Shown here piece after piece: positions 22,726 through 55,714 of a stretch of 64,000 nt of DNA; the first letter of the stretch is position 1; the number at the start of each line of letters is the position of its first letter. The position numbers and the translations under genes are program-made. This stretch comes from Yamagishiella unicocca (lineage: Eukaryota; Chlorophyta; Chlorophyceae; Chlamydomonadales; Volvocaceae), in NCBI GenBank assembly GCA_003116995.1, contig BDSL01000017.1, positions 744,001 to 808,000 on the forward strand. The letters run 5' to 3'. The notes under the pieces are model-generated. The model was not told where the DNA came from, did not search any database, and saw only the letters and a program-made list of their open reading frames with translations.

Positions 22726-22732
22726 GGTTGGG

Positions 22733-25819: not shown

Positions 25820-28762
25820 AAAGAGAGAGACCGCGTTACAGTGGCCGCACGACAGGCGGCACCCGCCCTTATCCCGGCGGGAAAGCACTGCGGAAGAGAC
25901 ACGGAACCAAGGTCGGGTACGGGCAACAGCAGGCAAACAGCATCATGCAAAGTCAGCACAAGCGACGGCAGGACACGGCCCCATGCAGGCCACCCTTACG
26001 CGTCAAAACCACCACAAAAGCCCCCATTGGCTCACCTGCCCATCACCCGCACCACTCGTATCTCGAACCAGCAAAGGTGGCACCAGGAAAGAAAGAACGA
26101 AAGAACAAACAGCAGCCAAGGCAGGCTAGCTAGGGCGGCACGGCGCACATGAGCCGACCCCCGGTTACGAACAAAAAAGGGTGGTCCACCCCCACGTCAC
26201 CCCAGTCCTTGCGGGGCAAACCCAAGCCCGCAAAGTCCCGCAGCAAGGCCCAGAACTTAGCAAGGAGGCCAGAACGCATAGCAGCAGGGAAGGTGGTGCC
26301 GGAGAGCCGATGAGAGTGTATGTACCGGCGCGCCCACTCCATCGCGTTGAGCGCCGCCAACGCCACCACATCCCACACACACTGCAGCACAGTGGTCGGA
26401 TCCGGCGACACACACAACCACACATGCTCACGCGTGACCCCGCACCCACAGCAGACTTCCAGTTCATCCCAGAGCGGGCGGACGAGGGGGCAAGACCAAA
26501 AGTGATGCAAGCGCGGCGACTCGGCCACACCCGCTGCAGCGGGGTAACAGCCGCAAGCACACGGTTCGGGTGGGACCAGCGGGAGGTGAGAGGAGCCCGG
26601 CATGGGCACCCCGTCAACCGCCAGCCGCCAGAGGACCTCCTTCCACCGCGGCTCCCACTTAAGACGCTTCCACAACCGCCGCCATACCGCGCGTAACGCC
26701 ACAAGGGCCGCCTCGGGCGTGGCAGCCACAGCAGGGGACAGCCCGAGCGCCTCCCGCACATACGCCGCATGACAGGCCTGCCTGGGGCGCTCCAGTTCCG
26801 CCGCCTGGAGTAGGGTGCCCAGCTTGACGGTGAAGGAGGTGAGGGGCAGCACGGCGTCCACACCCAGCCGCCACCCCAGGCGAGCAAGGAGGAGAGCATC
26901 CACCTCGTCAGGCGACGGCGGGGCGGGGCCATCGGGCGCCAGGCGAGCAGCAGCGAGCCATGCGGGCGAGATGTCAGAAAGGAGAGCGGCCACCGCAGCC
27001 CGCGCCGCGATGCGATCTTGGAGCGCACCCATGGCCAGCTCGGAGGGCGCCAGCTCGTGCCGTACGAGCGTCGTCCAGCGCTCAGCCAGCCGGCTGAAGA
27101 TGGCCATGCCCGGCGTCGTCGCCAGGGCATGGGCGCGCTCCACCTCAAACGCGGTCATAGCGTCCTGCACCCGGACGGCGTCGCCGACGGTCAGCAGGCG
27201 GCGGCACATGGTGAGGGGGCCATGGATAGCCTCCAACCCCGGCCGCCGGCCCGGCGCCCCCGCGTTGGGCAGGAGCGGGTTGCCCCACAGCGGCGCGTTG
27301 AAGCACCAGACGCCCGGCTCCAGGGGGGGTCCGCGACGTCAGACAGGGGGGGGAGGTGACCGAGGCTCGTGGCAAGCCGGTGGATGTCCGGGGGCAAGCT
27401 GAAGGGGGCGCCGAGCCACGGGCCATCCGGGCGAGCTGTGGTGACGGCCAGCGGGCGGAAGGCAGGGTGGAGGGTAGAGAGGAAGGAGACCGCAATCCGG
27501 ATCCACGGCGCGCGGGCAGCCGGGGGCTGCAGCGCGGAGCGGGCGACCGTCAGGCTCCACTTGGCATGCCGGCTGAGGACATGCAGCCGAAGGGGCAGTA
27601 CACCGAAGCCGCCGATGGTGGGATGACCGGAGAGCAGGCGGAGGGGGACACCAGTGAAACGGCGCTGGGCGTCATCAGGGCCTAGCTCCCGATCCACCAG
27701 CTTTGCGACAAGGGCCATGATGCCAGCAAGGACCTCCGCCGGCGGCAGCCCCGAGTGCTCCATGTGGTACGTCGCCATATGGAGAGCATAAGCTGCAGCC
27801 GCAGTGGCACGGCCGAACATCGACAGGGCCATGCGGGAGATCTTTTGGAGACGGCGGCGGGCCTCCGACATCCGTGACGCCCAATCGAGGACGGGGGCGG
27901 CAGGCGGATTGGTGAAGGGGATGCCCAGCGCCACCGCAGCGGGCACGATCCGAAGGCCAGCGAGGGCAGGGGGCGGGGGAGAAGGGGAGGGGCGAGGCAC
28001 CCCGGGAGCGGTGGCGGCAAGGGACGGCGATGTGGAGGGACCCGGGGCGGCCAGGGCGCCAGCGGCTGCGGCGAGGGCGCCCACGACCACGACAGCTGCA
28101 GCACCGCGGCCACGACGCCGACGACCGCGGCGAGCCAGCCCTGGTGGGCGCGCCAGGCGAGGCGGGTGACGGGCGACGGGGGAGCTGGCGGCGCCAGCAG
28201 GGGCGGCTGGGACGGCTGGAGCGGCTGGGGCGGCCGGGGCAGTGGGGGCGGCAGTGACAGCCGCGACGGCTGGGGCGTCAGGAGGCGTGGGAGACGCTGC
28301 GGCGGCGCCAGCGGCGGCCGGGGCTGCGGTCGTCAGCACCGTGGTGGCCGCGGCACCCGCGGCCGCCCCAGGAGGACTACCGGCGGCAGCCGAACCGGCG
28401 GTCGCCAGCGCCTCGGCGGCCACTGCGACCAGGACGGCAGCCGCCGGCGCCACGGCAGCCGCGGCGGCCGGGGCGGCAGCCGCCTGCGGGGCAGCAGCAG
28501 CGGCGGCCAGGGCGGCAGCCACCGGCGCAGCGGCAGCAGCGGCGGCGGCCGGGGCGTCAGGAGGTACGGCGGCGGCGCCAGCGCCTGCCGGGGCGGCCTC
28601 CACCGGCGCCTCGGCAGCAGCGGCGCTCGGGGCGGCGGGTGAAGCGGCGGCACCGCCCGCAGCGGTCCACGCGGCGGCAGGGGCGGCGACGGCCGCCACC
28701 GCAGCGGCAAGGACGGCAGCCGGGGCGGCGGGCGCCGGCGCCACCTGGCGACCAGCCCACAG
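25820..28762 (-). mobile_element. LINE family 1, 5'-truncated 2.9 kb copy
   Basis: Minus-strand copy running from the (GA)n/CCGCG 3' end to a breakpoint just after the LNPSKVEL region of the reverse transcriptase. It is flanked by CCCCCAA at 25813-25819 and 28763-28769, a probable 7-bp target duplication (ambiguous because the target is a minisatellite). It encodes the Ala-rich stretch and C-terminal zinc motif, with a frameshift near 27325 relative to the intact copies. Its 5' end stops 75 bp before tRNA-Lys. Confidence 0.88.
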
Positions 28763-28837
28763 CCCCCAACCTCTTCCAATCCTCAACCTCTTCCAAACCA
28801 ATAATAGTGTTGCAATCGTAAGTGCTGCCATCATATG

Positions 28838-28910
28838 GCCCGGTTAGCTCAGTCGGTAGAGCGCAAGGCTCTTAACCTTGTGGTCGTGGGTTCGAGCCCC
28901 ACATTGGGCG
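28838..28910 (+). tRNA. tRNA-Lys (CTT)
   Basis: 73-nt cloverleaf. The acceptor GCCCGGT pairs with ATTGGGC with two G-T pairs. The D arm is GCTC/GAGC, the anticodon stem CAAGG/CCTTG holds loop CTCTTAA (anticodon CTT), and the T arm is GTGGG TTCGAGC CCCAC. The A box TTAGCTCAGTCGG and B box GGTTCGAGCCC are intact. No run of four T follows within 100 bp, unlike the tRNA-Ser genes here. Confidence 0.96.
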
Positions 28911-28924
28911 CATGCATTCCTCTT

Positions 28925-29260
28925 AGGCTGACCAAATGGGGAACCATCCTGACCTGCTGCGTCAGTGGCCCATTAGGTCTGACTGGCCCCCATTTGGTCC
29001 GTCTATGAGCGTAGTAACACATTTCAGAATGCGAATGGAGAATATTGAAATTTGTGAATTACAGAAGTCTCTAGCCGATAGTTGTATATGGTATGGACCA
29101 TTTGGTCTGAAGGGGGGATCATTCAGATCTGAACATTGAGTCCATTCACACCTAATGGTCCATTAGGTCTGAATGGTCCCCCATTTGGTCCATTCAGACG
29201 TAGTGGTCCATACCCTATACAACTATCGGCTAGAGAATACTGGAATGTGTTACAACGTTA
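28925..29260. mobile_element. Foldback MITE with nested inverted repeats
   Basis: Arms CTCTAGCCGATAGTTGTATA (from 29069) and its complement (ending 29235) extend outward to GTAACACATTTCAG (29012) and CTGGAATGTGTTAC (ending 29253). Inside are several inverted copies of GGACCAAATGG / CCATTTGGTCC, also present at 28930-28995. No coding capacity. Family not assigned. Confidence 0.65.
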
Positions 29261-31348: not shown

Positions 31349-31366
31349 CGAGAGAGAGAGACCGCG
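31349..31366 (-). mobile_element. LINE family 1, extreme 3'-end stub
   Basis: Only (GA)n plus CCGCG of the LINE 3' end, abutting the tail of SINE S2. Confidence 0.4.
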
Positions 31367-31541
31367 TTTTTTTTTTAAATCCTTGCGTTACAGGACCCCG
31401 ACGCTGGGGTACGACACCTGACCGTGTCATAAGCTCTGTATCTCCACCCCCATCAACGACAACCTCGACCAGCAGGTTCAACCACAAACCTACTTGCCCA
31501 CAAGTGGGGCACCCGGTAACTACCGGGGAGGGGCCGGGGAA
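31367..31541 (-). mobile_element. tRNA-derived SINE, copy S2 (5' truncated), poly(A) tail
   Basis: Minus-strand copy: the last 165 bp of the SINE body, CCTGTAACGCAAGGATTT then ten A. It is truncated inside the 3' end of the second tRNA-like module. Confidence 0.8.
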
Positions 31542-31554
31542 GGTGCCGCGTTAC

Positions 31555-32484
31555 AGAGAGAGAGACCGCGTTACAGTGGCCGCACGACAGGCGGCACCCG
31601 CCCTTATCCCGGCGGGAAAGCACTGCGGAAGAGACACGGAACCAAGGTCGGGTACGGGCAACAGCAGGCAAACAGCATCATGCAAAGTCAGCACAAGCGA
31701 CGGCAGGACACGGCCCCATGCAGGCCACCCTTACGCGTCAAAACCACCACAAAAGCCCCCATTGGCTCACCTGCCCATCACCCGCACCACTCGTATCTCG
31801 AACCAGCAAAGGTGGCACCAGGAAAGAAAGAACGAAAGAACAAACAGCAGCCAAGGCAGGCTAGCTAGGGCGGCACGGCGCACATGAGCCGACCCCCGGT
31901 TACGAACAAAAATGGGTGGTCCACCCCCACGTCACCCCAGTCCTTGCGGGGCAAACCCAAGCCCGCAAAGTCCCGCAGCAAGGCCCAGAACTTAGCAAGG
32001 AGGCCAGAACGCATAGCAGCAGGGAGGGTGGTGCCGGAGAGCCGATGAGAGTGTATGTACCGGCGCGCCCACTCCATCGCGTTGAGCGCCGCCAACGCCA
32101 CCACATCCCACACACACTGCAGCACAGTGGTCGGATCCGGCGACACACACAACCACACATGCTCACGCGTGACCCCGCACCCACAGCAGACTTCCAGTTC
32201 ATCCCAGAGCGGGCGGACGAGGGGGCAAGACCAAAAGTGATGCAAGCGCGGCGACTCGGCCACACCCGCTGCAGCGGGGTAACAGCCGCAAGCACACGGT
32301 TCGGGTGGGACCAGCGGGAGGTGAGAGGAGCCCGGCATGGGCACCCCGTCAACCGCCAGCCGCCAGAGGACCTCCTTCCACCGCGGCTCCCACTTAAGAC
32401 GCTTCCACAACCGCCGCCATACCGCGCGTAACGCCACAAGGGCCGCCTCGGGCGTGGCAGCCACAGCAGGGGACAGCCCGAGCG
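31555..32484 (-). mobile_element. LINE family 1, 5'-truncated 0.93 kb copy
   Basis: 3' UTR plus the C-terminal coding part with the zinc-knuckle region (CACGC ... HHFWSC). It breaks off after codons for the LGLSPAVAAT region. It is followed directly by the 3' end of the next LINE copy. Confidence 0.88.
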
Positions 32485-32495
32485 TTACAGGCGAA

Positions 32496-33284
32496 AGAGA
32501 GAGAGAGAGAGACCGCGTTACAGTGGCCGCACGACAGGCGGCACCCGCCCTTATCCCGGCGGGAAAGCACTGCGGAAGAGACACGGAACCAAGGTCGGGT
32601 ACGGGCAACAGCAGGCAAACAGCATCATGCAAAGTCAGCACAAGCGACGGCAGGACACGGCCCCATGCAGGCCACCCTTACGCGTCAAAACCACCACAAA
32701 AGCCCCCATTGGCTCACCTGCCCATCACCCGCACCACTCGTATCTCGAACCAGCAAAGGTGGCACCAGGAAAGAAAGAACGAAAGAACAAACAGCAGCCA
32801 AGGCAGGCTAGCTAGGGCGGCACGGCGCACATGAGCCGACCCCCGGTTACGAACAAAAATGGGTGGTCCACCCCCACGTCACCCCAGTCCTTGCGGGGCA
32901 AACCCAAGCCCGCAAAGTCCCGCAGCAAGGCCCAGAACTTAGCAAGGAGGCCAGAACGCATAGCAGCAGGGAGGGTGGTGCCGGAGAGCCGATGAGAGTG
33001 TATGTACCGGCGCGCCCACTCCATCGCGTTGAGCGCCGCCAACGCCACCACATCCCACACACACTGCAGCACAGTTGTCGGATCCGGCGACACACACAAC
33101 CACACATGCTCACGCGTGACCCCGCACCCACAGCAGACTTCCAGTTCATCCCAGAGCGGGCGGACGAGGGGGCAAGACCAAAAGTGATGCAAGCGCGGCG
33201 ACTCGGCCACACCCGCTGCAGCGGGGTAACAGCCGCAAGCACACGGTTCGGGTGGGACCAGCGGGAGGTGAGAGGAGCCCGGCA
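32496..33284 (-). mobile_element. LINE family 1, 5'-truncated 0.79 kb copy
   Basis: Same 3' end as its neighbour but truncated earlier, just before the SSHLPLVPPEP codons. Its 5' end stops 75 bp before tRNA-Ser at 33360. Confidence 0.88.
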
Positions 33285-33359
33285 CCGGACCGGAAGGTGC
33301 GGCTAGGTTGGGCGCTAAATCAGAATACCAATGGGCCGCAACGACTTCACACCCAATCC

Positions 33360-33441
33360 GCACCTGTGGCCGAGCGGTTAAGGCGTGGCCCTGCTAAGGC
33401 CGTGGGGTCTCCCCGCGTGCGTTCGAATCGCATCGGGTGCG
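33360..33441 (+). tRNA. tRNA-Ser (GCT), copy 1
   Basis: 82-nt class II tRNA. Acceptor GCACCTG pairs with CGGGTGC, anticodon loop CTGCTAA sits on stem GGCC/GGCC, the long variable arm is CGTGGGGTCTCCCCGCG, and the T arm has TTCGAAT. A TTTT terminator lies at 33455-33458. It differs from the other three copies by two bases in the D-loop and anticodon-arm region (GAGCGG, GCGTGG). Confidence 0.96.
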
Positions 33442-34059
33442 TTATTTGGAAGTATTTTGTCTACGTAACCGCGCTGTGAGGTATTAGGTTGAAGGTACTG
33501 ATAGTTTGGTACTCTGGGGAGGGTGGCGCTAGGGCGATTTTGAAAGGACACTGGTTTCGCCAGCGATAGTAATACGGTACGTGGAGAGTGCACACGTCAA
33601 AATATTACAGTGGGTTGGGGAACGACTAGTAGTAGTCATGACTGATGCACTGGGCCCTAATAGCAATGACCGTTACAGAGGATAGTGGGGACCAACCCCT
33701 TCCCACCCCTTACTCGGGACGCCTAGTGCCGCGAAACCCCGCAGTACGTACTAGTACCTGCCTCCCTTCTCCCTTCGAAGTCCTGTGTGCATGAAGTCCT
33801 GTGTAGTCTCCCCTACCAGTGTTTTTTTTTTCGTTTTAGGGGGGTCTCGATTTATTCCATCTTAAGTAATAAAATTTCAGGGGTGTTTGATATTTGTTCC
33901 ATATTTGTTCCATAGCTGTGTGGCGCTGGGGGGGCTCCGCCCCCCCCAGACCCCCCCCGATAAGTTACAAGTCCTTTCACAGACCAAGAGCCACGTACAG
34001 TTGGTGTGCTTCTTAGTGTCATTTGTTAGGGCAAACCGCAGCACAGTAGCGCTGGGTCT
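33442..34059. mobile_element. tRNA-Ser flank and left end of a hAT element
   Basis: No gene before 33878. CAGGGGTGTTTGATATTTG from 33879 looks like a hAT terminal repeat. GGGGGGCTCCGCCCCCCC at about 33929-33947 is a short hairpin. No matching right terminus (CACCCCTG) was found, so the element is probably truncated on its right. Confidence 0.4.
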
Positions 34060-36891: not shown

Positions 36892-37074
36892 AGAGAGAGA
36901 GACCGCGTTACAGTGGCCGCACGACAGGCGGCACCCGCCCTTATCCCGGCGGGAAAGCACTGCGGAAGAGACACGGAACCAAGGTCGGGTACGGGCAACA
37001 GCAGGCAAACAGCATCATGCAAAGTCAGCACAAGCGACGGCAGGACACGGCCCCATGCAGGCCACCCTTACGCG
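36892..37074 (-). mobile_element. LINE family 1, 3'-end fragment
   Basis: About 180 bp of 3' UTR only, from the (GA)n end to CACCCTTACGCG. It lies beside the tail of SINE S3 in the same orientation. Confidence 0.85.
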
Positions 37075-37090
37075 GCCCTGTTCTCTCTGC

Positions 37091-37403
37091 AAAAAAAACC
37101 AAATTCCTTGCGTGACAGGACCCCGACGCTGGGGTACGACACCTGACCGTGTCATAAGCTCTGTATCTCCACCCCCATCAACGACAACCTCGACCAGCAG
37201 GTTCAACCACAAACCTACTTGCCCACAAGTGGGGCACCCGGTAACTACCGGGGAGGGGCCGGGGAATCGAACCACCGATCTCTGGACAGAATGCCAGTGT
37301 CTTAACCAATTAGACGAACCCCCCTAAAGTTGTTGGGTTGGGGTCCGGGGCTCTCACCCGGTTGGCAGGGCCATACACGCCCCTGTTACGGAAGTCGCAG
37401 GTC
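37091..37403 (-). mobile_element. SINE copy S3, 3' portion, with internal second tRNA-like module
   Basis: Body and tail of the SINE on the minus strand. A second tRNA-like unit lies at 37254-37326: its acceptor strands GGGGGGT and GCCCCTC pair, it has a perfect D stem GTCT/AGAC and a perfect B box GGTTCGATTCC (37263-37273), but a faulty anticodon arm. The element is interrupted at 37403 by the full-length LINE, and its head resumes at 44769-44897. Confidence 0.8.
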
Positions 37404-37443
37404 TTTCCTATCGTTGCTCTCCTTCTATTCCTAGCTCTGGGCT

Positions 37444-39123: not shown

Positions 39124-39128
39124 GGCCC

Positions 39129-42100: not shown

Positions 42101-44457
42101 AGGCGGCTGCCGCCCCGGCCGCCGCGGCTGCCGTGGCGCCGGCGGCTGCCGTCCTGGTCGCAGTGGCCGCCGAGGCGCTGGCGACCGCCGGTTCGGCTGC
42201 CGCCGGTGGTGCTCCTGGGGCGGCCGCGGGTGCCGCGGCCACCACGGTGCTGACGACCGCAGCCCCGGCCGCCGCTGGCGCCGCCGCAGCGTCTCCCACG
42301 CCTCCTGACGCCCCAGCCGTCGCGGCCGTCACTGCCGCCCCCACTGCCCCGGCCGCCCCAGCCGCTCCAGCCGCCCCAGCCGCCCCTGCTGGCGCCGCCA
42401 GCTCCCCCGTCGCCCGTCACCCGCCTCGCCTGGCGCGCCCACCAGGGCTGGCTCGCCGCGGTCGTCGGCGTCGTGGCCGCGGTGCTGCAGCTGTCGTGGT
42501 CGTGGGCGCCCTCGCCGCAGCCGCTGGCGCCCTGGCCGCCCCGGGTCCCTCCACATCGCCGTCCCTTGCCGCCACCGCTCCCGGGGTGCCTCGCCCCTCC
42601 CCTTCTCCCCCGCCCCCTGCCCTCGCTGGCCTTCGGATCGTGCCCGCTGCGGTGGCGCTGGGCATCCCCTTCACCAATCCGCCTGCCGCCCCCGTCCTCG
42701 ATTGGGCGTCACGGATGTCGGAGGCCCGCCGCCGTCTCCAAAAAATCTCCCGCATGGCCCTGTCGATGTTCGGCCGTGCCACTGCGGCTGCAGCTTATGC
42801 TCTCCATATGGCGACGTACCACATGGAGCACTCGGGGCTGCCGCCGGCGGAGGTCCTTGCTGGCATCATGGCCCTTGTAGCAAAGCTGGTGGATCGGGAG
42901 CTAGGCCCTGATGACGCCCAGCGCCGTTTCACTGGTGTCCCCCTCCGCCTGCTCTCCGGTCATCCCACCATCGGCGGCTTCGGTGTACTGCCCCTTCGGC
43001 TGCATGTCCTCAGCCGGCATGCCAAGTGGAGCCTGACGGTCGCCCGCTCCGCGCTGCAGCCCCCGGCTGCCCGCGCGCCGTGGATCCGGATTGCGGTCTC
43101 CTTCCTCTCTACCCTCCACCCTGCCTTCCGCCCGCTGGCCGTCACCACAGCTCGCCCGGATGGCCCGTGGCTCGGCGCCCCCTTAAGCTTGCCCCCGGAC
43201 ATCCACCGGCTTGCCACGAGCCTCGGTCACCTCCCCCCCCTGTCTGACGTCGCGGACCCCCCCCTGGAGCCGGGCGTCTGGTGCTTCAACGCGCCGCTGT
43301 GGGGCAACCCGCTCCTGCCCAACGCGGGGGCGCCGGGCCGGCGGCCGGGGTTGGAGGCTATCCATGGCCCCCTCACCATGTGCCGCCGCCTGCTGACCGT
43401 CGGCGACGCCGTCCGGGTGCAGGACGCTATGACCGCGTTTGAGGTGGAGCGCGCCCATGCCCTGGCGACGACGCCGGGCATGGCCATCTTCAGCCGGCTG
43501 GCTGAGCGCTGGACGACGCTCGTACGGCACGAGCTGGCGCCCTCCGAGCTGGCCATGGGTGCGCTCCAAGATCGCATCGCGGCGCGGGCTGCGGTGGCCG
43601 CTCTCCTTTCTGACATCTCGCCCGCATGGCTCGCTGCTGCTCGCCTGGCGCCCGATGGCCCCGCCCCGCCGTCGCCTGACGAGGTGGATGCTCTCCTCCT
43701 TGCTCGCCTGGGGTGGCGGCTGGGTGTGGACGCCGTGCTGCCCCTCACCTCCTTCACCGTCAAGCTGGGCACCCTGCTCCAAGCGGCGGAACTGGAGCGC
43801 CCCAGGCAGGCCTGTCATGCGGCGTATGTGCGGGAGGCGCTCGGGCTGTCCCCTGCTGTGGCTGCCACGCCCGAGGCGGCCCTTGTGGCGTTACGCGCGG
43901 TATGGCGGCGGTTGTGGAAGCGTCTTAAGTGGGAGCCGCGGTGGAAGGAGGTCCTCTGGCGGCTGGCGGTTGACGGGGTGCCCATGCCGGGCTCCTCTCA
44001 CCTCCCGCTGGTCCCACCCGAACCGTGTGCTTGCGGCTGTTACCCCGCTGCAGCGGGTGTGGCCGAGTCGCCGCGCTTGCATCACTTTTGGTCTTGCCCC
44101 CTCGTCCGCCCGCTCTGGGATGAACTGGAAGTCTGCTGTGGGTGCGGGGTCACGCGTGAGCATGTGTGGTTGTGTGTGTCGCCGGATCCGACCACTGTGC
44201 TGCAGTGTGTGTGGGATGTGGTGGCGTTGGCGGCGCTCAACGCGATGGAGTGGGCGCGCCGGTACATACACTCTCATCGGCTCTCCGGCACCACCCTCCC
44301 TGCTGCTATGCGTTCTGGCCTCCTTGCTAAGTTCTGGGCCTTGCTGCGGGACTTTGCGGGCTTGGGTTTGCCCCGCAAGGACTGGGGTGACGTGGGGGTG
44401 GACCACCCATTTTTGTTCGTAACCGGGGGTCGGCTCATGTGCGCCATGCCGCCCTAG
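39129..44457 (+). pseudogene. LINE ORF2 (APE endonuclease plus reverse transcriptase), copy A, frameshifted
   Basis: Endonuclease motifs in order: SHNLGG, QETHL, AGDFNFV, RIDRIYVS, SDHRV. Reverse transcriptase motifs: SPGWDGIP, YRPITLLCTDYRILAK, EQSAFLPGRSI, FLDFAKAYDTIDR, GVRQGCPLAPLLY, QFADDAQV, LNPSKVEL. The C-terminal zinc region is CACGC ... HHFWSC. After LNPSKVEL an Ala/Pro-rich block of about 280 residues is inserted before the LGIPF segment. Frame breaks: a C-run at 39532-39538 is one base shorter than in copy B (7 versus 8), and a second C-run near 41351 needs a frame change to join the two halves of the reverse transcriptase. The last frame, 41395-44457, is 1020 codons. Confidence 0.88.
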
Positions 44458-44768
44458 CTAGCCTGCCTTGGCTGCTGTTTGTTCTTTCGTTCTTTCTTTC
44501 CTGGTGCCACCTTTGCTGGTTCGAGATACGAGTGGTGCGGGTGATGGGCAGGTGAGCCAATGGGGGCTTTTGTGGTGGTTTTGACGCGTAAGGGTGGCCT
44601 GCATGGGGCCGTGTCCTGCCGTCGCTTGTGCTGACTTTGCATGATGCTGTTTGCCTGCTGTTGCCCGTACCCGACCTTGGTTCCGTGTCTCTTCCGCAGT
44701 GCTTTCCCGCCGGGATAAGGGCGGGTGCCGCCTGTCGTGCGGCCACTGTAACGCGGTCTCTCTCTCTC

Positions 44769-44897
44769 GCAGGTCCCCGTGCCAGTACTTCCGTTTACCC
44801 CCCCGGAAATGGGTGGCGGTTTGGGTGGGGGGGCCAGGACTTGAACTCTGGATCTCCTGCCGAGTAAGGCCGGGCTTTAGCAGCTAAGCTACCCACC
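44769..44897 (-). mobile_element. SINE copy S3, 5' head portion
   Basis: Continues the SINE interrupted at 37403. It contains the first tRNA-like head (same as at 22356-22431), read on the minus strand. Its 5' end lies 80 bp before tRNA-Ser at 44978. With the 3' part it makes a SINE of about 435 bp. Confidence 0.82.
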
Positions 44898-44977
44898 CCA
44901 GGTGCACCACGGCGATGAGCAGGTCTCTGAGGCTGCTATTGGGAAAGCAGGTTGACATAGGAAGCCACACCCGATCT

Positions 44978-45059
44978 GCACCTGTGGCCGAGTGGTTAAG
45001 GCGCGGCCCTGCTAAGGCCGTGGGGTCTCCCCGCGTGCGTTCGAATCGCATCGGGTGCG
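44978..45059 (+). tRNA. tRNA-Ser (GCT), copy 2
   Basis: Same cloverleaf as copy 1, with GAGTGG in the D loop and GCGCGG before the anticodon stem. TTTT terminator at 45068-45071. The upstream DNA is unrelated to that of the other copies, apart from a short CCCGATCT-like leader. Confidence 0.96.
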
Positions 45060-45780
45060 TCGTAATATTTTGGCCTGCTAGCCACAGCTGTCAGGGTATC
45101 TGCTCGGAAGGGCAGTCGCTGTAGGGCGAATGTGGGAGGGACGGGCCAGGGGGGGGGCTGTGTACGTGTGCAGGTTAAAAACCCTTACTTGAAGGAGGAG
45201 TGCCTGATATCTGGGCAGCGGACCGCCCGATGACAGTCTTGCCTGAAGATGACTCACCAGGTCCTGCGCAGATATTACTTATTAAAGTGGATTCCAGATC
45301 AAAAGACAGAACCATCGGGCACATTAGGCCACATCGCCTGGCACGGAAGGGGACGAAAGTGACAGAAACCCGACCGCGTCGTAACAAAGGCAAACCGCCA
45401 CGATACCAGCTGGGAGTCCAGAAGCAAAAACAGTCCAGTAATAACTGTTACAGTGGGCCCCAGTAGCAGTCAGGTAGTGCTTGTCGCTTCACTATTTCCA
45501 CGCGCAATAAGCCTTACAATACCGCACCTGGAGCTCACTGTAACGAACACTAATGGGATGCATGTGGCCACGTGCAAGGGAGCCATCAGCGCAGCCTCCC
45601 CCATGCTGCATTTTCAGGGCCTATTAACAAGTTACGTCATAAGAGCCATCGGGCGCATCGCCTGACACTGAAAGAGACGCAGGAAGAAGAACAAAATGGC
45701 CGACCGAGATATGGCAAACAACAGAAACCCCGGGCCAGAGAACAAACAGCGGCACCAACCATCTAGGAGAAGTAACCTAA
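45060..45780. other. Short stubs of LINE family 2
   Basis: Minus-strand stub at about 45285-45345 (CAGAACCATCGGGCAC, CACATCGCCTGG), a GTTACAGTGGGCCCC stub near 45446, a plus-strand stub near 45525-45545 (CCTGGAGCTCACTGTAACG) and another inverted stub near 45645-45670. These match the 3' end of family 2 and suggest repeated insertion of very short 3' fragments. No gene is seen. Confidence 0.45.
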
Positions 45781-46465: not shown

Positions 46466-47030
46466 GTTACAACAAGTACACCGAGGTCGCGGACGCCCGG
46501 CGGGCCGCGCATGAGATGTTTGTGCGCGAAGCGCTTGGGGGTACCGGGCCTGTCCTGCCAGCGGCCCTGAATGCCCCGTAGCAAGTGTTTCGGCGGCTCT
46601 GGTCTGGCATAAAGTGGGAGCCTTCCTATAAGGAGGGGTGGTGGCGGCTGTCTGTGGATGGGATCCCCCTGCTCGGGAACTCTCATATGCGGACGGTAGC
46701 AGCAGCCCCCTGTGGATGCGGTGTGCCGTCCAGGAGCCGGTACCCCCCGCCTGCACCAGTTTTGGTTCTGCCCGGTGGCTCAAGCAGTGATTGCCCAACT
46801 CGAGACCCAGCTCGATGTAGGGGTGACATGGGCGTAAGTCTGGTTGGTGCAGGCACCCCCCGGGGTGCAGGCACCCCCCGGGGTGCAGCCCTGCGCCTGG
46901 GATGTAGTAATCCTGGCGGCTATTACTGCTATGGAGATGGGGCGCCGGTTTATGGCTGCGGCCTTGAAAAGGGCGGGGGCGGGTTGGCCCCTGTGGTCGG
47001 GTGGCCAGTACCCACCGGCACCGCCCTACT
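46466..47030 (+). pseudogene. LINE family 2 fragment, copy b
   Basis: Encodes FVREALGG, then after a stop RLWSGIKWEPSYKEGWWRLS (compare RLWKRLKWEPRWKEVLWRLA in family 1), then WDVVILAAITAMEMGRRFMAA in another frame. Stops and frameshifts show decay. It lies directly after copy a in the same orientation. Confidence 0.65.
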
Positions 47031-47124
47031 CGCCACCACCGCCATGCATCCGCCACGGGGACGGGAGGTCCACCCACAGGCGGAAGCACTAGGAAGCAAT
47101 GAGATGTGCACTGGGAAGCGCAAC

Positions 47125-47288
47125 TTTTTTTTTTTAAAATCCTTGCGTTACAGGACCCCGACGCTGGGGTACGACACCTGACCGTGTCATAAGCTCTGTA
47201 TCTCCACCCCCATCAACGACAACCTCGACCAGCAGGTTCAACCACAAACCTACTTGCCCACAAGTGGGGCACCCGGTAACTACCGGGG
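47125..47288 (-). mobile_element. tRNA-derived SINE, copy S4 (5' truncated), poly(A) tail
   Basis: Minus strand: body ending CCTGTAACGCAAGGATTTT followed by a run of A, as in S2. Its truncated 5' end lies 79 bp before tRNA-Ser at 47368. Confidence 0.82.
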
Positions 47289-47367
47289 GGGTGCCCCAGC
47301 AGCACCACGTGGGCCGGGTCTTAAAGGACAGAGCAGCAACGCGCAGAATGTATGGCACGCCCGATCC

Positions 47368-47449
47368 GCACCTGTGGCCGAGTGGTTAAGGCGCGGCCCT
47401 GCTAAGGCCGTGGGGTCTCCCCGCGTGCGTTCGAATCGCATCGGGTGCG
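47368..47449 (+). tRNA. tRNA-Ser (GCT), copy 3
   Basis: Identical to copy 2 over the mature tRNA. TTTT terminator at 47453-47456, only four bases after the gene. Confidence 0.96.
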
Positions 47450-48035
47450 TACTTTTGCCATTGCTTCCATTGTCAGACAAGTTACAACGCAATGGTTGTG
47501 GAGATCGGCTGTATGGGCCTCTCAGACAAGGGGAGAGATTACACCTTCGCGCGGGGGATGGGGAGCCGGACATTCCCTGTCGACGAATATAGTTAAGAGT
47601 TACAGTGGGGCCCAGACTCTGAGCCTCCTGGGCTGGCAGTCCCCTGTCCGGAGGAGGCGGACGTGGGGCGAGTAACGAACGGAGCATTCGCCACCCACCT
47701 CAACGGCAAAGTGACCATCAATATCGGCGTGTGCCAGTGTCGGCGTGAGGACGACACCCCCACAAGCAGCGGAGGGCACATCACAGCCAAAAAGTCACAG
47801 AGCAATGCATCCACAAAGCCGCAGAGTCAAAAGCCGAAGAGCCGCAGAGCCCGCCAGAGCCGCACAGCTGCACAGCCATCATGCACACGAGACCGCACAA
47901 CCACAAAGCAACACAGCCGCACAGCCACAAGGCCTACCTTTGAAGGTCTGGAGCTCACTATAACGAATACTGCTACAAGGCCGCAGGAGGGTGGCGAGGA
48001 TACCGCGAGTCACCCGCAGCACCAAACCTCACCAA

Positions 48036-48038
<3 letters not shown>
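47450..48038. other. Unassigned DNA with family 2 stubs
   Basis: Inverted stub GTTACAGTGGGGCCCAGACTC (about 47598-47618) and forward stub GGTCTGGAGCTCACTATAACG (about 47945-47965) match the LINE family 2 3' end. AGAGCCGCAGAG-type short repeats lie between 47815 and 47930. No gene. Confidence 0.45.
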
Positions 48039-48081
<43 letters not shown>

Positions 48082-48377
48082 CGTTACAGTGGCCGCACGA
48101 CAGGCGGCACCCGCCCTTATCCCGGCGGGAAAGCACTGCGGAAGAGACACGGAACCAAGGTCGGGTACGGGCAACAGCAGGCAAACAGCATCATGCAAAG
48201 TCAGCACAAGCGACGGCAGGACACGGCCCCATGCAGGCCACCCTTACGCGTCAAAACCACCACAAAAGCCCCCATTGGCTCACCTGCCCATCACCCGCAC
48301 CACTCGTATCTCGAACCAGCAAAGGTGGCACCAGGAAAGAAAGAACGAAAGAACAAACAGCAGCCAAGGCAGGCTAG

Positions 48378-51300
48378 CTAGGGCGGCACGGCGCACATGA
48401 GCCGACCCCCGGTTACGAACAAAAATGGGTGGTCCACCCCCACGTCACCCCAGTCCTTGCGGGGCAAACCCAAGCCCGCAAAGTCCCGCAGCAAGGCCCA
48501 GAACTTAGCAAGGAGGCCAGAACGCATAGCAGCAGGGAGGGTGGTGCCGGAGAGCCGATGAGAGTGTATGTACCGGCGCGCCCACTCCATCGCGTTGAGC
48601 GCCGCCAACGCCACCACATCCCACACACACTGCAGCACAGTGGTCGGATCCGGCGACACACACAACCACACATGCTCACGCGTGACCCCGCACCCACAGC
48701 AGACTTCCAGTTCATCCCAGAGCGGGCGGACGAGGGGGCAAGACCAAAAGTGATGCAAGCGCGGCGACTCGGCCACACCCGCTGCAGCGGGGTAACAGCC
48801 GCAAGCACACGGTTCGGGTGGGACCAGCGGGAGGTGAGAGGAGCCCGGCATGGGCACCCCGTCAACCGCCAGCCGCCAGAGGACCTCCTTCCACCGCGGC
48901 TCCCACTTAAGACGCTTCCACAACCGCCGCCATACCGCGCGTAACGCCACAAGGGCCGCCTCGGGCGTGACAGCCACAGCAGGGGACAGCCCGAGCGCCT
49001 CCCGCACATACGCCGCATGACAGGCCTGCCTGGGGCGCTCCAGTTCCGCCGCCTGGAGCAGGGTGCCCAGCTTGACGGTGAAGGAGGTGAGGGGCAGCAC
49101 GGCGTCCACACCCAGCCGCCACCCCAGGCGAGCAAGGAGGAGAGCATCCACCTCGTCAGGCGACGGCGGGGCGGGGCCATCGGGCGCCAGGCGAGCAGCA
49201 GCGAGCCAGGCGGGCGAGATGTCAGAAAGGAGAGCGGCCACCGCAGCCCGCGCCGCGATGCGATCTTGGAGCGCACCCATGGCCAGCTCGGAGGGCGCCA
49301 GCTCGTGCCGTACGAGCGTCGTCCAGCGCTCAGCCAGCCGGCTGAAGATGGCCATGCCCGGCGTCGTCGCCAGGGCATGGGCGCGCTCCACCTCAAACGC
49401 GGTCATAGCGTCCTGCACCCGGACGGCGTCGCCGACGGTCAGCAGGCGGCGGCACATGGTGAGGGGGCCATGGATAGCCTCCAACCCCGGCCGCCGGCCC
49501 GGCGCCCCCGCGTTGGGCAGGAGCGGGTTGCCCCACAGCGGCGCGTTGAAGCACCAGACGCCCGGCTCCAGGGGGGGGTCCGCGACGTCAGACAGGGGGG
49601 GGAGGTGACCGAGGCTCGTGGCAAGCCGGTGGATGTCCGGGGGCAAGCTGAAGGGGGCACCGAGCCACGGGCCATCCGGGCGAGCTGTGGTGACGGCCAG
49701 CGGGCGGAAGGCAGGGTGGAGGGTAGAGAGGAAGGAGACCGCAATCCGGATCCACGGCGCGCGGGCCGCCGGGGGCTGCAGCGCGGAGCGGGCGACCGTC
49801 AGGCTCCACTTGGCATGCCGGCTGAGGACATGCAGCCGAAGGGGCAGTACACCGAAGCCGCCGATGGTGGGATGACCGGAGAGCAGGCGGAGGGGGACAC
49901 CAGTGAAACGGCGCTGGGCGTCATCAGGGCCTAGCTCCCGATCCACCAGCTTTGCGACAAGGGCCATGATGCCAGCAAGGACCTCCGCCGGCGGCAGCCC
50001 CGAGTGCTCCATGTGGTACGTCGCCATATGGAGAGCATAAGCTGCAGCCGCAGTGGCACGGCCGAACATCGACAGGGCCATGCGGGAGATCTTTTGGAGA
50101 CGGCGGCGGGCCTCCGACATCCGTGACGCCCAATCGAGGACGGGGGCGGCAGGCGGATTGGTGAAGGGGATGCCCAGCGCCACCGCAGCGGGCACGATCC
50201 GAAGGCCAGCGAGGGCAGGGGGCGGGGGAGAAGGGGAGGGGCGAGGCACCCCGGGAGCGGTGGCGGCAAGGGACGGCGATGTGGAGGGACCCGGGGCGGC
50301 CAGGGCGCCAGCGGCTGCGGCGAGGGCGCCCACGACCACGACAGCTGCAGCACCGCGGCCACGACGCCGACGACCGCGGCGAGCCAGCCCTGGTGGGCGC
50401 GCCAGGCGAGGCGGGTGACGGGCGACGGGGGAGCTGGCGGCGCCAGCAGGGGCGGCTGGGACGGCTGGAGCGGCTGGGGCGGCCGGGGCAGTGGGGGCGG
50501 CAGTGACAGCCGCGACGGCTGGGGCGTCAGGAGGCGTGGGAGACGCTGCGGCGGCGCCAGCGGCGGCCGGGGCTGCGGTCGTCAGCACCGTGGTGGCCGC
50601 GGCACCCGCGGCCGCCCCAGGAGGACTACCGGCGGCAGCCGAACCGGCGGTCGCCAGCGCCTCGGCGGCCACTGCGACCAGGACGGCAGCCGCCGGCGCC
50701 ACGGCAGCCGCGGCGGCCGGGGCGGCAGCCGCCTGCGGGGCAGCAGCAGCGGCGGCCAGGGCGGCAGCCACCGGCGCAGCGGCAGCAGCGGCGGCGGCCG
50801 GGGCGTCAGGAGGTACGGCGGCGGCGCCAGCGCCTGCCGGGGCGGCCTCCACCGGCGCCTCGGCAGCAGCGGCGCTCGGGGCGGCGGGTGAAGCTGCGGC
50901 ACCGCCCGCAGCGGTCCACGCGGCGGCAGGGGCGGCGACGGCCGCCACCGCAGCGGCAAGGACGGCAGCCGGGGCGGCGGGCGCCGGCGCCACCTGGCGA
51001 CCAGCCCACAGCAGCTCGACCTTGGAGGGATTCAGGTGCTGGCCAGAGGCGCGGGCAAACGCCGCCATGAGGGCGATAAATGGCGGTACTGCAGCTGCAT
51101 CTGGGAGCGCGACTTGGGCATCATCAGCAAACTGCACGCCGGTAACCAGGCTGGCCGGGTCCGCCGGGGCCAGCGGCACGCCAACACCGTGCCGCTTCAG
51201 CCAGCAGAGGAGGGCGTGGGCCACGAAGAGGTAGAGGAGCGGGGCAAGGGGACAGCCCTGCCGGACGCCGGCCCGGATAGGGACAGAGCGGGAGATGTAG

Positions 51301-53707
51301 CCGTTGACGGACGCCATGGCCACTGTACGGCCCAACAGGAGCTGCGTCCATCCCAGGAAACCGGCCCCAACACCCATGCGCTCCATGACAGCAAAGAGGA
51401 AGGAGCGGTCAATGGTGTCGTAAGCTTTGGCGAAATCCAAGAAGGCGATGAGAGCACTCCGTTGCTGCTGGTGTAGGAGGGGGGGAGGCAGCGAAGGAAG
51501 CGGGTGTTGGCGCCAATGGAGCGGCCGGGGAGGAAGGCGGACTGCTCGAGGGGGATGGCGGCGGAAAGGCCAGGGCTGAGGCGGTTGGCGAGGACCTTCG
51601 CCAGAATGCGGTAATCAGTACAGAGCAGGGTGATGGGGCGGTAGGCGCCGGCCGCCGCCCGGTCCGCATCATGGCCCTTGTAAAGGACGGATATAACACC
51701 CTTCAGGAAACCCGTCGGGACGGCGCGCAGATGGCCGATAGCAGTGAAAAGGCGGGCCAGTGCCGGCACAAAGCAGCCACTGTAGGTCCGGAGGAGATCC
51801 ACAGGGATTCCGTCCCAGCCTGGGGATGTGCCAGGCTTGGCTTGCTGCAGGGCCCGCGCCACCTCCGCTGCTGAGACTGCGATGGAGCCCAACTCGGGGC
51901 GAAGATCGGGCGAGATCGGAGTAGAGTGGGCGTCGACAGCTGCCAGAACCGCTTGCTGATCCGCCGAGTCCAGGCCTGACGGCAGGCAGCTGATGCGCTC
52001 CCAGAAAGAAGCGACGACATTGGGCAATTGGCGCGGGTCGGTCACGAGGCGCCCAGCAGCGTCGCGCAGCGCGGTAATGTCCTGGGACGACCGCGGTGGG
52101 TGAATCATGGCGGTGAGTGCGGGGCACGGGCGCTCCCCCTCGCGCACCCACGCCACGCGTACCCGGGCGGCCTCGCCCGCCGCCGCCACACGCAAGGCCA
52201 ACGACAAGGCAGCCTGGGCGGCCACCACACCACCCACGGCCTCGGGCGCCGCCGACGGCGTCGCGGCCGCAAGGTGGGCCGCCCGCAAGGCGGCTCGGGC
52301 TGCCTCCACCTGCGCGCCCGAGGCCAGGCGCCGAGAGCGAGCGGTGCGATTGAGAGTCGCCGCCACCGCCGCCAGCCGCCGTTTGAAGCCCGGCCACCAC
52401 GCCAGCAGGGCAGCGTGCTCCCCCTCAGCCGGCATGGCCGCGAACGCCGCGTCGAGCCAGGCCTGCAGCTGATCCTTGAGGTCGCGGTGGCCAGAGAAGG
52501 CCATGCGGGTGCGACGGAGGCCGGGGCCGCGCGAGGCAGGAACCCGGGGCAGCAGCTGGATGCAGGGGACGCGGTGGTCGGAAGGCGAGCCCAGCTCAAT
52601 GGCGGAGCCCGCCACGAAGGGGAGGAGGCAGCGGGACACATAGATGCGGTCGATGCGGGAACCACCGGGGGAGGGGGCGGAGTAGAGGTGGGTGTAATCC
52701 GTGCTGGTGGGGAAGCGCTCACGATGCACATCAGCCAACGACGGGCCCACTGTCGCGAGGACCCGAGCGGCAGGGCGGTCGCGAACCACTCGCGCCGACC
52801 CCGCACTGCTGTCCCACGGGCCAGCGACGAAGTTGAAGTCGCCGGCTAGGACATGCTGGCCCGGGGTGCTGGTCGCCAGCACAGGCGCCAGGTGCTGCTG
52901 GAGGAAAGCAGCGCGTGAAGCCGAGCTACTAGCGGGCAGATAAACATTGGTGAGGTGCAGGCGATGACCCAGCCAGGTGAAGGAGTAGGTGGCGAGGCGC
53001 CCCGCTGCGGAGGAGGACGCGGCCGGGACCGCCGGAGGCTGGTCAGCCGCGGCCAGGCCGGCCCCTTCCAGGGCCGCCGCGGCGGGGGGAGGCGCAGCGG
53101 CGTCCCCACCACGGGGCGCCGTGGCGGCCGAGGCTACCGCCGCCGCCGTGGCCGCCACGGCCGCGGCCGCGGCGGCCGCCGCCACCGAGGCCGCCACCCC
53201 CGAGGCCGCCGCCACGGACACGGCGGCGGCGGAGGGACCCGCGTCGGCGGCCGGCCCAGGGGACGGTGAGCGGGGCGGCGGTGACAGGGAACGAGAGGGG
53301 GGGGAGGAAGCAGCAACTGCAGGTTGATCACCCGCGAGACCAGGGAGCAGTGGTGAGGCCGCTGCCAACAGCCGGCCAGAAGCGATCAGGTCCGAGCGAA
53401 CGAGAATCGCCACGCCAGCACAGGGGTCCGCCAGCGTAGCATTGCGGAACGACACCACACGCCAGGGAGCGACATGGAGGTGACCAGCGGCCGCATGGAG
53501 ACGCCGCTCGAATAGCCCCCGATCTCCAAACGTAGACAAGTGCGTCTCCTGGAGACAGACGACATCGAGCCGGAGCTGCGCCCACAGCAGTAGAGCAGCA
53601 TGCAGCTTGGGAGCAGCGGCGCCTGACCGCACGCCCCCCAAGTTGTGTGAGCCCACACGGAGCGGCCGGCAGGGCCGCGGGGCGGAGCGCCCCCCACGGG
53701 CCGGCAT
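48378..53707 (-). pseudogene. LINE ORF2, copy B, one shared frame break
   Basis: The 5' half (53707 down to 51197, 836 codons) is uninterrupted here, covering the endonuclease and the first reverse transcriptase motifs. The 3' half (51440 down to 48378, 1020 codons) carries FLDFAKAYD, FADD, the Ala-rich block and the zinc region. The two frames overlap around a seven-C run at about 51479-51485, identical to that in copy A. Either both derive from one broken master or the ribosome shifts frame there. Coding substitutions relative to copy A are few (for example VALPDA for VTLPDA). Confidence 0.85.
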
Positions 53708-53712
53708 GGGCC

Positions 53713-55392
53713 TTACTGGGCGGGCGACGGTCCGCCGCCACCGCCCACGGGGGGCGGCGGCAACAGCAGCAGCGGAGAGGGTCCGTCGCCACCACCCACG
53801 GGCGGCGGCGGCAACAGCAGCAGCGGAGAGGGTCCGTCGCCACTGCCCACGGGCGGCGGCGGCAACAGCAGAAGTGGCGAGGGTAGGGCCGGCTTGCGCC
53901 GCACCGAGAGCGGCGAGCCCGAGCGGCCACGGCGGCCCAGCACTGAACTGACGTCCACCTCCATCCGGTCGCGGCGCGCGCGGCGCTCCAGGGCTGGGGC
54001 GGGCGGGCGCCCACGGGGGGGCGACACGCCGCGCTGGGGCGGCGAGCCACCACCGGGACGACGCGCCGCGGGGCTGCGGGAGCCCCGCGGGGCAGACGGG
54101 GTACGGCCCGAGCTGCGGGCGGCGGGGCCACAGGGACCCCCGCGAGGCGACGTAGCCCGCCCCAGGAGGCGCGCCACAGACCCGAGCGCGGCAGCCGCAC
54201 CGCCGCTCAGTCCAGGGGGTGGAGCCGCCACGCGAGCAACGATGCGCGCGACCAGCGCGCGCACCACCACCTCCCGCTCAGCCGCCGCCACCGGCGCGGC
54301 GCGGGTGGCGGCACGAGCTGCCGCGCCCGCCGCCCGAGCAGCCCGCGCACCAGCCTGCGACACCACGGGGGCCACGGCGGCGCTGGGGGCGCCAGGGGCG
54401 CCAGCCACCGCGGCCAACACAGGCGGCGGCGGCACCCTGGCAGCAGCCACGACGGGCGCAACCCCCACCCTGACGGCAGGCACCGAGGGCGCACCCCGGG
54501 CCTCAGCGGTCGGGGTCGGAAGCACCCCACCAGCGGTCTCCGGCATGGACGCCGGCGCCCCCACGGCCGGCGGCGGTGGCGACCGTGGCGGCGGATCGCC
54601 CACCGGCACAGGGGGCGCCCACGCCGGCGCGGTGGGCAGCGGCGGGCGAAGGACGGGATACTCTGGCGGCAGGGACCGCGGGCGGTGGGCCAGGGACAGC
54701 TGACCATCCCAGACACGACCATCCATCAGCGGTACCGTGGCTGGCTGCACCGGCGGCAGGCTGTGCCGCCGTTGCACAAGCAGGCTGACACTGCCATCAG
54801 TGACGCCGAGCACCTCCAGGACCTGCGGGCCCAGCTGCGGGCCGTACACCAGCCGCAGGAATGCCAGCACCGCCTCGAAGTCTCCACAGCCAGCTACCGA
54901 GGGGGGAAGCCCCGCAACCACCGCCTCCGTGGCGGTGACGTCAACTGAACGCAAGCCAGCCACCAATGGGGGGTCACCCGGCTGTCCCAGCAGCTGGGTT
55001 GGCACACTGGCCAGGGCGACCGCGGAGGGGGGCAGACGACTCCCGAGCGCCGCCAGCGCCGACGCGGACAGCCAGACCTGGAGCTCGACGCCAAGCGGTG
55101 CGCCTGCCTCCGCAACCTTGCTTGGGATGACCGGTCCGAGCCCCACGTGGGCCGCGGACTGCAGGCCAGCCGGCAGCTTGGTCCGGAAGAAGTCGCGCAG
55201 CATTGGCGCCGCGGCTCGGACCGCCGCGAGCGCATGCGGCGCCCTGGTGCCAGCACCAAACTGAAAGGTATAGGCAGCGTTGAAGCCGCGGGCGCGAAGC
55301 ACCGAATGCGCATCAAACACTGGCCGCGCCTCGGCCAGCGAAACGACGCGCCGCGGAGCGACCACTCGCGGCCCACGCGGAGCCACCGCCAT
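53713..55392 (-). CDS. LINE ORF1 protein, copy B
   Basis: 559 residues, the same length as in copy A with only a few differences, and open throughout. Same C-terminal [10 protein letters not shown] triplication, and the same five-base gap between its stop and the ORF2 start. Confidence 0.75.
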   Translation of the reverse strand: MAVAPRGPRVVAPRRVVSLAEARPVFDAHSVLRARGFNAAYTFQFGAGTRAPHALAAVRAAAPMLRDFFRTKLPAGLQSAAHVGLGPVIPSKVAEAGAPLGVELQVWLSASALAALGSRLPPSAVALASVPTQLLGQPGDPPLVAGLRSVDVTATEAVVAGLPPSVAGCGDFEAVLAFLRLVYGPQLGPQVLEVLGVTDGSVSLLVQRRHSLPPVQPATVPLMDGRVWDGQLSLAHRPRSLPPEYPVLRPPLPTAPAWAPPVPVGDPPPRSPPPPAVGAPASMPETAGGVLPTPTAEARGAPSVPAVRVGVAPVVAAARVPPPPVLAAVAGAPGAPSAAVAPVVSQAGARAARAAGAAARAATRAAPVAAAEREVVVRALVARIVARVAAPPPGLSGGAAAALGSVARLLGRATSPRGGPCGPAARSSGRTPSAPRGSRSPAARRPGGGSPPQRGVSPPRGRPPAPALERRARRDRMEVDVSSVLGRRGRSGSPLSVRRKPALPSPLLLLPPPPVGSGDGPSPLLLLPPPPVGGGDGPSPLLLLPPPPVGGGGGPSPAQ

Positions 55393-55555
55393 AGCCCAGA
55401 GCTAGGGATAGAAGGAGAGCAACGATAGGAAAGACCGAGATGCAGAGAAGCGCATCGAGTCAGGCGAGCTGGGCCAAAACATGCCGAACCACCAACATCG
55501 AAGAGTTTGGTTGTCAAAACGTAAGGTAAGTTCAACTGTATTTTTCGAGTTTTAC

Positions 55556-55579
55556 AGAGAGAGAGAGAGAGAGACCGCG
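55556..55579 (-). mobile_element. LINE family 1, extreme 3'-end stub
   Basis: (GA)n followed by CCGCG, the last 24 bp of the LINE. It ends 53 bp before tRNA-Ser at 55633. On its own it could be a chance GA tract; the CCGCG junction and its position make a LINE origin likely. Confidence 0.5.
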
Positions 55580-55632
55580 GGGTCAATCCTTTGTCTTGCA
55601 GGTGGGCGCCGACCTAACTCCATACCCGGTCC

Positions 55633-55714
55633 GCACCTGTGGCCGAGTGGTTAAGGCGCGGCCCTGCTAAGGCCGTGGGGTCTCCCCGCGTGCGTTCGAA
55701 TCGCATCGGGTGCG
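55633..55714 (+). tRNA. tRNA-Ser (GCT), copy 4
   Basis: Mature sequence identical to copies 2 and 3. TTTTT terminator at 55723-55727. Confidence 0.96.

Follow-up and report, generated by a model that had tools for sequence, protein, structure and literature searches.

In the green alga Yamagishiella unicocca, a long interspersed nuclear element (LINE) and a short interspersed nuclear element (SINE) very probably integrate by target-primed reverse transcription at positions set by the pre-initiation complex of RNA polymerase III (Pol III). The SINE is derived from a transfer RNA (tRNA), as its tRNA-like head shows in Rfam. The case begins with a 64,000-nucleotide stretch of contig BDSL01000017.1 (positions 744,001 to 808,000, hereafter the window), for which an initial annotation, made from the letters alone, had proposed that a LINE and a SINE target tRNA genes.

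ARAGORN identifies five tRNA genes in the window, all on the + strand, and a retroelement ends shortly upstream of each: the nearest element 5' end lies 74 bp from tRNA-Lys, 74 bp from tRNA-Ser1, 79 bp from tRNA-Ser2, 78 bp from tRNA-Ser3 and 52 bp from tRNA-Ser4. All five elements are on the - strand, antisense to the tRNA. Both the close upstream placement (52-79 bp; ARAGORN, BLAST and the sequence) and the antisense orientation had been described in the initial annotation and are confirmed. The 5' ends for Lys, Ser1, Ser2 and Ser3 were placed by BLAST with the window LINE (48079-55475) and a SINE copy, and the end of the Ser4 stub (55579) was taken from the sequence itself. The same annotation was correct that the target at tRNA-Lys was a minisatellite, into which the LINE at 25820..28763 is inserted, and that elements are stacked at tRNA-Ser1 and tRNA-Ser2, with several members mapped at both. 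The features of the window are as follows.

22358..23061, + strand: SINE, then LINE 3' part; minus-strand B-box matches start 107 and 215 bp from the SINE 5' end
25820..28763, - strand: 5'-truncated LINE in a minisatellite, 5' end 74 bp upstream of tRNA-Lys (BLAST to LINE 4464-7397; sequence)
28838..28911, + strand: tRNA-Lys(CTT) (ARAGORN; Rfam, 68.3 bits)
31350..31366, - strand: LINE 3' stub, outermost in the stack behind tRNA-Ser1 (sequence)
31367..31541, - strand: SINE 3' part in the tRNA-Ser1 stack (BLAST)
31555..32484, - strand: 5'-truncated LINE in the tRNA-Ser1 stack (BLAST)
32494..33284, - strand: 5'-truncated LINE, innermost, 5' end 74 bp upstream of tRNA-Ser1 (BLAST)
33359..33442, + strand: tRNA-Ser1(GCT) (ARAGORN; without an Rfam match at the gathering score)
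36892..37074, - strand: 5'-truncated LINE behind the SINE of tRNA-Ser2 (BLAST)
37091..37403, - strand: SINE 3' part at tRNA-Ser2, with a tRNA-like unit at 37252-37324 (minus) (Rfam tRNA; BLAST)
37400..44766, + strand: near-full-length LINE copy A within the tRNA-Ser2 SINE, with CGCAGGTC flanking both sides (Rfam; BLAST; flank comparison)
44767..44897, - strand: 5' part of the tRNA-Ser2 SINE, 5' end 79 bp upstream of tRNA-Ser2 (BLAST)
44977..45061, + strand: tRNA-Ser2(GCT) (ARAGORN; Rfam)
47127..47288, - strand: 5'-truncated SINE, 5' end 78 bp upstream of tRNA-Ser3 (BLAST)
47367..47450, + strand: tRNA-Ser3(GCT) (ARAGORN; Rfam)
48042..55475, - strand: longest LINE copy, ~7.4 kb, ORF1 and ORF2 (APE, RT), frame broken, long (GA)n at the 3' end
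55556..55579, - strand: LINE 3' stub between the long LINE copy and the tRNA, 52 bp upstream of tRNA-Ser4 (sequence)
55632..55716, + strand: tRNA-Ser4(GCT) (ARAGORN; Rfam)

A 22-base pattern from the LINE 3' end matched the 133-Mb assembly containing the window 608 times (310 + 298), and the reversed control pattern gave 0 matches. The first 100 of the 608 places by contig (C2 to C25), chosen blind to tRNAs, formed the LINE sample; 7 were inside the window, 77 of the other 93 were read and 16 were left out. The read sites comprise 29 in loci L001-L020 (10 kb each) and 48 in loci L061-L100 (~1.2 kb each), with L006 and L007 excluded before counting as overlapping views of L008. They contain 60 stack ends, of which 36 reached the 5' end and 24 extend past the read stretch; L082 and L083, both without a reached 5' end, are one site. 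The initial annotation had proposed plotting distance and orientation around insertions, and the result is in its favor: beyond the 5' end, an opposite-strand tRNA gene is found by ARAGORN at 26 of the 36 reached stack ends, at 51-164 bp (median 73 bp, quartiles 66.5-84.8, n=26), and a same-strand tRNA at none of them. The chance expectation is 0.016 of 36, a rate that rests on an assumed Volvox carteri tRNA gene density (1051 genes, as given in a passage of PMC2888827) and not on sampled random sites. On the LINE 3' side there is no tRNA within 250 bp, with loci L061-L100 covering only 115-140 bp there.

The genes faced by LINEs include those for Tyr, Met, Pro, Arg, Gly, Glu, Thr, Leu, Gln, Ala, Trp, Phe and SeC, although the intron option was needed for about half of the 26 calls, some isotypes are tentative and one is a stop anticodon. 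L075 and L076 (C12) are similar and probably duplicated tRNA-Pro loci, which makes the sample not strictly independent. One of the 16 left-out sites, C20:239298, is visible in L035 and has a tRNA-Lys at 78 bp.

The ten reached stack ends without an ordinary tRNA gene comprise two facing permuted tRNA-Ser genes, one LINE inside a SINE, five with B-box-like sequence only, one facing another LINE and one that is unexplained. L067 (C10:242262-243502) and L096 (C16:1046767-1048007) contain permuted tRNA-Ser(AGA) genes in which the 3' half precedes the 5' half and the junction is in the anticodon loop. When the halves of L067 were rejoined by script, ARAGORN reported tRNA-Ser(AGA), and the rejoined halves of L096 gave a cloverleaf of this kind with an identical anticodon loop. 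Used as a DNA query, the L067 unit matched across both halves at five places, counting L067: two on C10 and one each on C20, C1 and C16. Among green-algal nuclear genomes, a 2014 review tabulates permuted tRNAs for Ostreococcus and Micromonas and states that Chlamydomonas reinhardtii lacks them (PMC3978253). A B box with at most one mismatch lies 112-155 bp from the 5' end in eight of the ten, which is the B-box position of most intronless tRNAs in the sample; the background is 6 per 54,000 strand-bases, or ~0.005 per such window. In L080 a minisatellite of ~130 bp is followed by another LINE. At a loose threshold, Rfam detects no Pol III RNA in L003, L004, L010, L020, L067, L080, L086 or L096, and its sole match in L085 is the SINE's own tRNA-like unit.

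LINEs that have landed within SINEs do so at about the same distance from a tRNA-like unit. The initial annotation had listed copy A as an exception without a nearby tRNA; it can be fitted too, since copy A is antisense to the second tRNA-like unit of its host SINE and lies 75 bp upstream of that unit. The LINE stub within a SINE at L017 is 68 bp upstream of the unit, and the one visible LINE-in-SINE junction of L084 agrees with both. The other listed exception, the pair at 22.3-23.1 kb, is fitted only weakly: there is a B box at 107 bp, but Rfam finds no tRNA on the expected strand and the SINE head is matched only weakly, so we treat it as a weak case.

To compare the SINE, a 155-base piece was searched against the assembly; of the 41 matches listed, two (one in the window) were skipped before choosing, and the first 19 in list order were read, 490 bp each. 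Three are stacks extending past the read stretch, and the 16 resolved sites face 5S rRNA (5), U6 (1), a tRNA (5) or a B-box repeat (4), with one misfit. L101-L105 face one and the same 5S rRNA unit (identified by Rfam in L101 and by its start sequence in the rest) through three junctions: 62 bp, common to L101-L103, 49 bp in L105 and, read from the sequence, ~60 bp in L104. The SINE of L119 ends 58 bp short of the U6 gene that it faces, one of nine U6 genes in the assembly and the one that was read. The tRNAs faced are Asn twice (one flank, different junctions), Leu, Ala and a Leu with an intron. In L108, L115 and L116 the B box of a repeat with a T run is 124-127 bp from the SINE end. The LINE itself was seen only at tRNA, tRNA-like and B-box sites. 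The proposed targeting of tRNA genes is therefore supported in the genome sample, with a target set wider than proposed that takes in 5S rRNA and U6 too.

The repeat present in L085, L106, L107, L108, L115 and L116 consists of a tRNA-like 3' half (e.g. GAGGTCGCCGGTTCGAAACCCGGCGGCCGCA) and a T run, has no Rfam family, and is faced like a tRNA gene in five of these six loci; it may be a new Pol III gene or SINE. Arrays of 5S genes occur on several contigs (among 47 matches listed). Those at C17:3075-9550 and C47:209535-217864 have unit lengths of ~630-643 and 375-386 bp, with a few larger steps in C47. The difference is about the size of a monomer SINE, and a monomer SINE may have become part of the longer 5S unit.

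Seen from the tRNA genes, occupancy is partial. The tRNA-side sample of 40 loci (L021-L060) represents 41 of 66 top-scoring tRNA matches, omitting 15 of the C132 cluster, the window's own tRNAs and nine others; several loci overlap the LINE sample. A LINE or SINE lies 66-115 bp upstream of 9 of the 45 ARAGORN tRNAs, antisense in 9 of 9, and no element lies within 250 bp downstream of any of the 45, only ~100 bp being covered there in 20 of the 40 loci. The statement that every tRNA gene is preceded by an element thus holds in the window and fails in the genome sample. About one fifth of the sampled tRNAs are occupied, near the 24% given for the Dictyostelium element TRE5-A in the abstract of PMC5391098.

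The LINE is ~7.4 kb long and has two open reading frames (ORFs), ORF1 and ORF2, the latter with APE (PF03372) and RT (PF00078) domains in window copy A. The ORF2 frame is broken in both long window copies, and in the L001 copy it is open for 1966 codons stop-to-stop. At the LINE 3' end, CTGTAACGCGG precedes TC repeats. The SINE occurs in two forms, a ~423-bp dimer carrying two tRNA-like units (Rfam tRNA, 29.3 and 35.0 bits) and a monomer starting at the second unit, and ends in CTGTAACGCAAGGA and an A/T-rich tail. Likeness between the SINE and LINE 3' ends is limited to CTGTAACGC, and the tails differ. LINE copies are mostly 99-100% identical by BLAST, which indicates that they are young and the element recently active. 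Between 37400-44766 and 48079-55475 a 5237-base stretch is 100% identical, and for a 334-base LINE 3' part the best 40 genomic matches are all 100% identical. Named relatives among 26 protein matches, most of them nameless, come from Tetrabaena, Chlamydomonas and Chlorella; the nearest named match is 'LINE-1 reverse transcriptase [Tetrabaena socialis]', and a Chlorella 'Transposon TX1' is also present. For an IF-2-like exon, the closest of the named matches is from Chlamydomonas reinhardtii. ORF1 has only two homologues among those found, both unnamed proteins, and its structure model, folded without an alignment, was useless (mean predicted local distance difference test score 40.7). Fragments at window 45440-47000 resemble a second, related LINE, sense on the + strand, with a 3' end carrying CCCACTGTAAC; their resemblance to the protein of the first LINE was assessed visually.

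The flanks of the LINE insertions carry the signature of duplication. We compared the two flanks of 18 insertions with 306 mismatched pairs of the same flanks. A common stretch of at least 5 bp is present in 15 of the 18 insertions versus 32% of mismatched pairs, and one of at least 6 bp at 13 of 18 versus 10%; without two insertions in repeats, at least 6 bp are shared in 11 of 16 versus 23 of 240. Duplicated flanks include CCCTGA, CCTGGG, GCTACACAG and GTACAT. Duplications of ~6-9 bp are real as a group, and single 5-bp cases mean little. Together with the 5' truncation and the variable tails, they fit target-primed reverse transcription, and the antisense orientation implies that the primer strand would be the sense strand of the target gene, with synthesis towards the gene. 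The stack order suggests that later insertions fell closer to the gene.

The simplest mechanism consistent with these features is that a LINE particle would contact TFIIIB, or Pol III bound with TFIIIB, just upstream of the transcription start. The APE domain would then nick the sense strand of the gene ~50-110 bp upstream, and the nicked 3' end would prime cDNA synthesis towards the gene. The SINE RNA would borrow the LINE proteins, as the same siting and the shared CTGTAACGC suggest. TFIIIB upstream of the start is common to 5S, tRNA and U6 promoters, whose internal boxes differ. Being shared by all three, TFIIIB is the favored contact, and the guide is likely to be TFIIIB or the assembled Pol III complex. 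We consider it reasonably probable that TFIIIB steers both elements to all three Pol III promoter classes (5S, tRNA and U6), permuted tRNAs included, that the SINE's tRNA-like promoter is itself a landing site, and that this system evolved independently of the tRNA-targeting TRE elements of amoebae.

Several observations weigh against steering by TFIIIB or the Pol III complex as a whole. In 24 of the 60 LINE stacks the 5' end lies past the stretch covered, mostly in ~1.2-kb reads; L012 and L095 have outlying distances of 164 and 137 bp. Among the stack ends without a tRNA, all that L010 and L085 offer is a tRNA-like 3' half whose B box, at 132 bp, is perfect; L003, L020 and L086 have only a one-mismatch B box, 115-143 bp away; we found no Pol III landmark for L004; and the 112-155 bp range was fixed after the data were seen. 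On the SINE side, the B box of L107 is ~215 bp from the SINE end and not ~125, with a minisatellite between, and the B-box repeat of L106 is in the wrong orientation. L014 and L099 lack a flank duplication, that of L015 is only 4 bp, and sharing of 5 bp or more by chance is common, as the mismatched pairs show. The evidence for 5S consists of three junctions. That for U6 is one locus, and a SINE at that, which weakens the case against TFIIIC. The SINE could also use another LINE, given that only CTGTAACGC is common to both and the tails differ.

The pattern might instead reflect insertion into any open, nucleosome-poor DNA, Pol III upstream regions being merely accessible. Chromatin at Pol III genes is open in other organisms, but openness alone imposes no orientation, whereas 26 of 26 LINEs with a tRNA are antisense within a narrow distance range, and the tRNA-side sample has no element just downstream of its 45 tRNAs (with the ~100-bp coverage in 20 of 40 loci noted above); we regard this explanation as improbable. 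It is still harder to attribute the pattern to random insertion followed by selection that retains harmless copies near tRNA genes, and we rate this as very improbable. Such a safe-haven argument has been made for compact genomes, in the abstract of PMC5006619. The LINE copies are nevertheless young, by their near-identity, and constant in orientation, and position within a SINE should not matter to the host, so that the common LINE-in-SINE site (two full junctions, one partial) favors aim over selection.

Duplication, segmental or tandem, of a block that holds both element and tRNA does account for a few copies: the L075/L076 tRNA-Pro flanks are similar, and L101-L103 share one SINE-5S junction. 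At most loci, however, isotype, spacer and 5' truncation point differ, and one 5S unit and one Asn flank each carry SINEs with different junctions. These locus differences, with flanks that have short stretches in common more often than mismatched pairs, rule out block duplication as the general cause, to which we assign almost no probability, and uphold the initial annotation's view that the arrangement was not copied as one unit. Next to no chance is left for a LINE that aims at GA-rich microsatellites or other DNA sequence that happens to occur near tRNAs. Antisense-strand (GA)n is present at LINE 3' ends, and L072 and L096 are within GA-rich DNA, but the flank duplications listed above are not GA repeats, so that the (GA)n apparently comes from the element tail; targeting of GA microsatellites was rejected on this ground. 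Gene-sequence-specific insertion of the kind known for Utopia or Keno was also rejected, no common target sequence being seen.

The closest functional parallel to this LINE is TRE5-A (DRE) of Dictyostelium discoideum. According to passages of PMC5911963 and PMC5391098, TRE5-A inserts antisense 44-54 bp upstream of tRNAs and 37-41 bp upstream of 5S genes, also occurs at A/B-box sites without a tRNA, occupies ~24% of tRNA genes, and binds TFIIIB subunits via ORF1, with the B box required. As far as those passages go, the algal LINE resembles it in being a non-long terminal repeat (non-LTR) element with APE and RT domains that lies antisense and turns its 5' end towards that of the tRNA; 5S and B-box sites are a further likeness. 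In the alga the spacing is longer and its range wider (median 73 bp), and the LINE's named relatives are from green algae. An oligo(A) tail, which would mark descent from the TREs, is replaced by (TC)n. The algal case adds a SINE sited in the same way and extends the targets to one U6 gene and two permuted tRNAs. In our analysis, the algal LINE works like TRE5-A, a likeness of function that need not reflect common descent.

Other systems share single features with the algal pair. NLTR-A of Dictyostelium purpureum and NLTR-B of Polysphondylium pallidum are L1-type elements upstream of tRNAs (2-6 and 39-64 bp); they differ in this spacing, in an RNase H domain that replaces a zinc finger, and in belonging to amoebae (from the portion of PMC5911963 consulted). 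Yeast Ty1 and Ty3 insert upstream of Pol III genes via the Pol III machinery and differ as LTR elements with an integrase (same portion of PMC5911963). Utopia, Keno, NeSL-1_TV and planarian LIN target small-RNA genes (U2, tRNA-Pro, tRNA-Arg, tRNA-Glu) and are each described, in a section of PMC4640811, as specific to one gene, whereas the algal LINE targets many genes at a distance. The pair L1-1_CR and SINEX-3_CR of Chlamydomonas reinhardtii combines an L1-clade LINE with a tRNA-type SINE, likewise in a green alga; it differs in its poly(A) tails and a common 3' end of ~80 nt, and Pol III siting goes unmentioned for it (excerpt of PMC3747384). As the initial annotation had supposed, we find no algal precedent for LINE/SINE targeting of Pol III genes among the open-access literature matches listed, subscription papers being mostly outside them.

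In the literature consulted, the non-LTR elements described as integrating at set positions upstream of Pol III genes are those of social amoebae; a LINE/SINE pair doing so in a green alga would suggest that the Pol III strategy arose again. It would provide a second system for finding how the Pol III complex is recognized by a LINE particle. If the proposed steering is correct, the promoter of one parasite would be the target for its own helper, building nested stacks. The insertions would also serve as natural tags marking Pol III genes, including permuted tRNAs and the unannotated B-box repeat.

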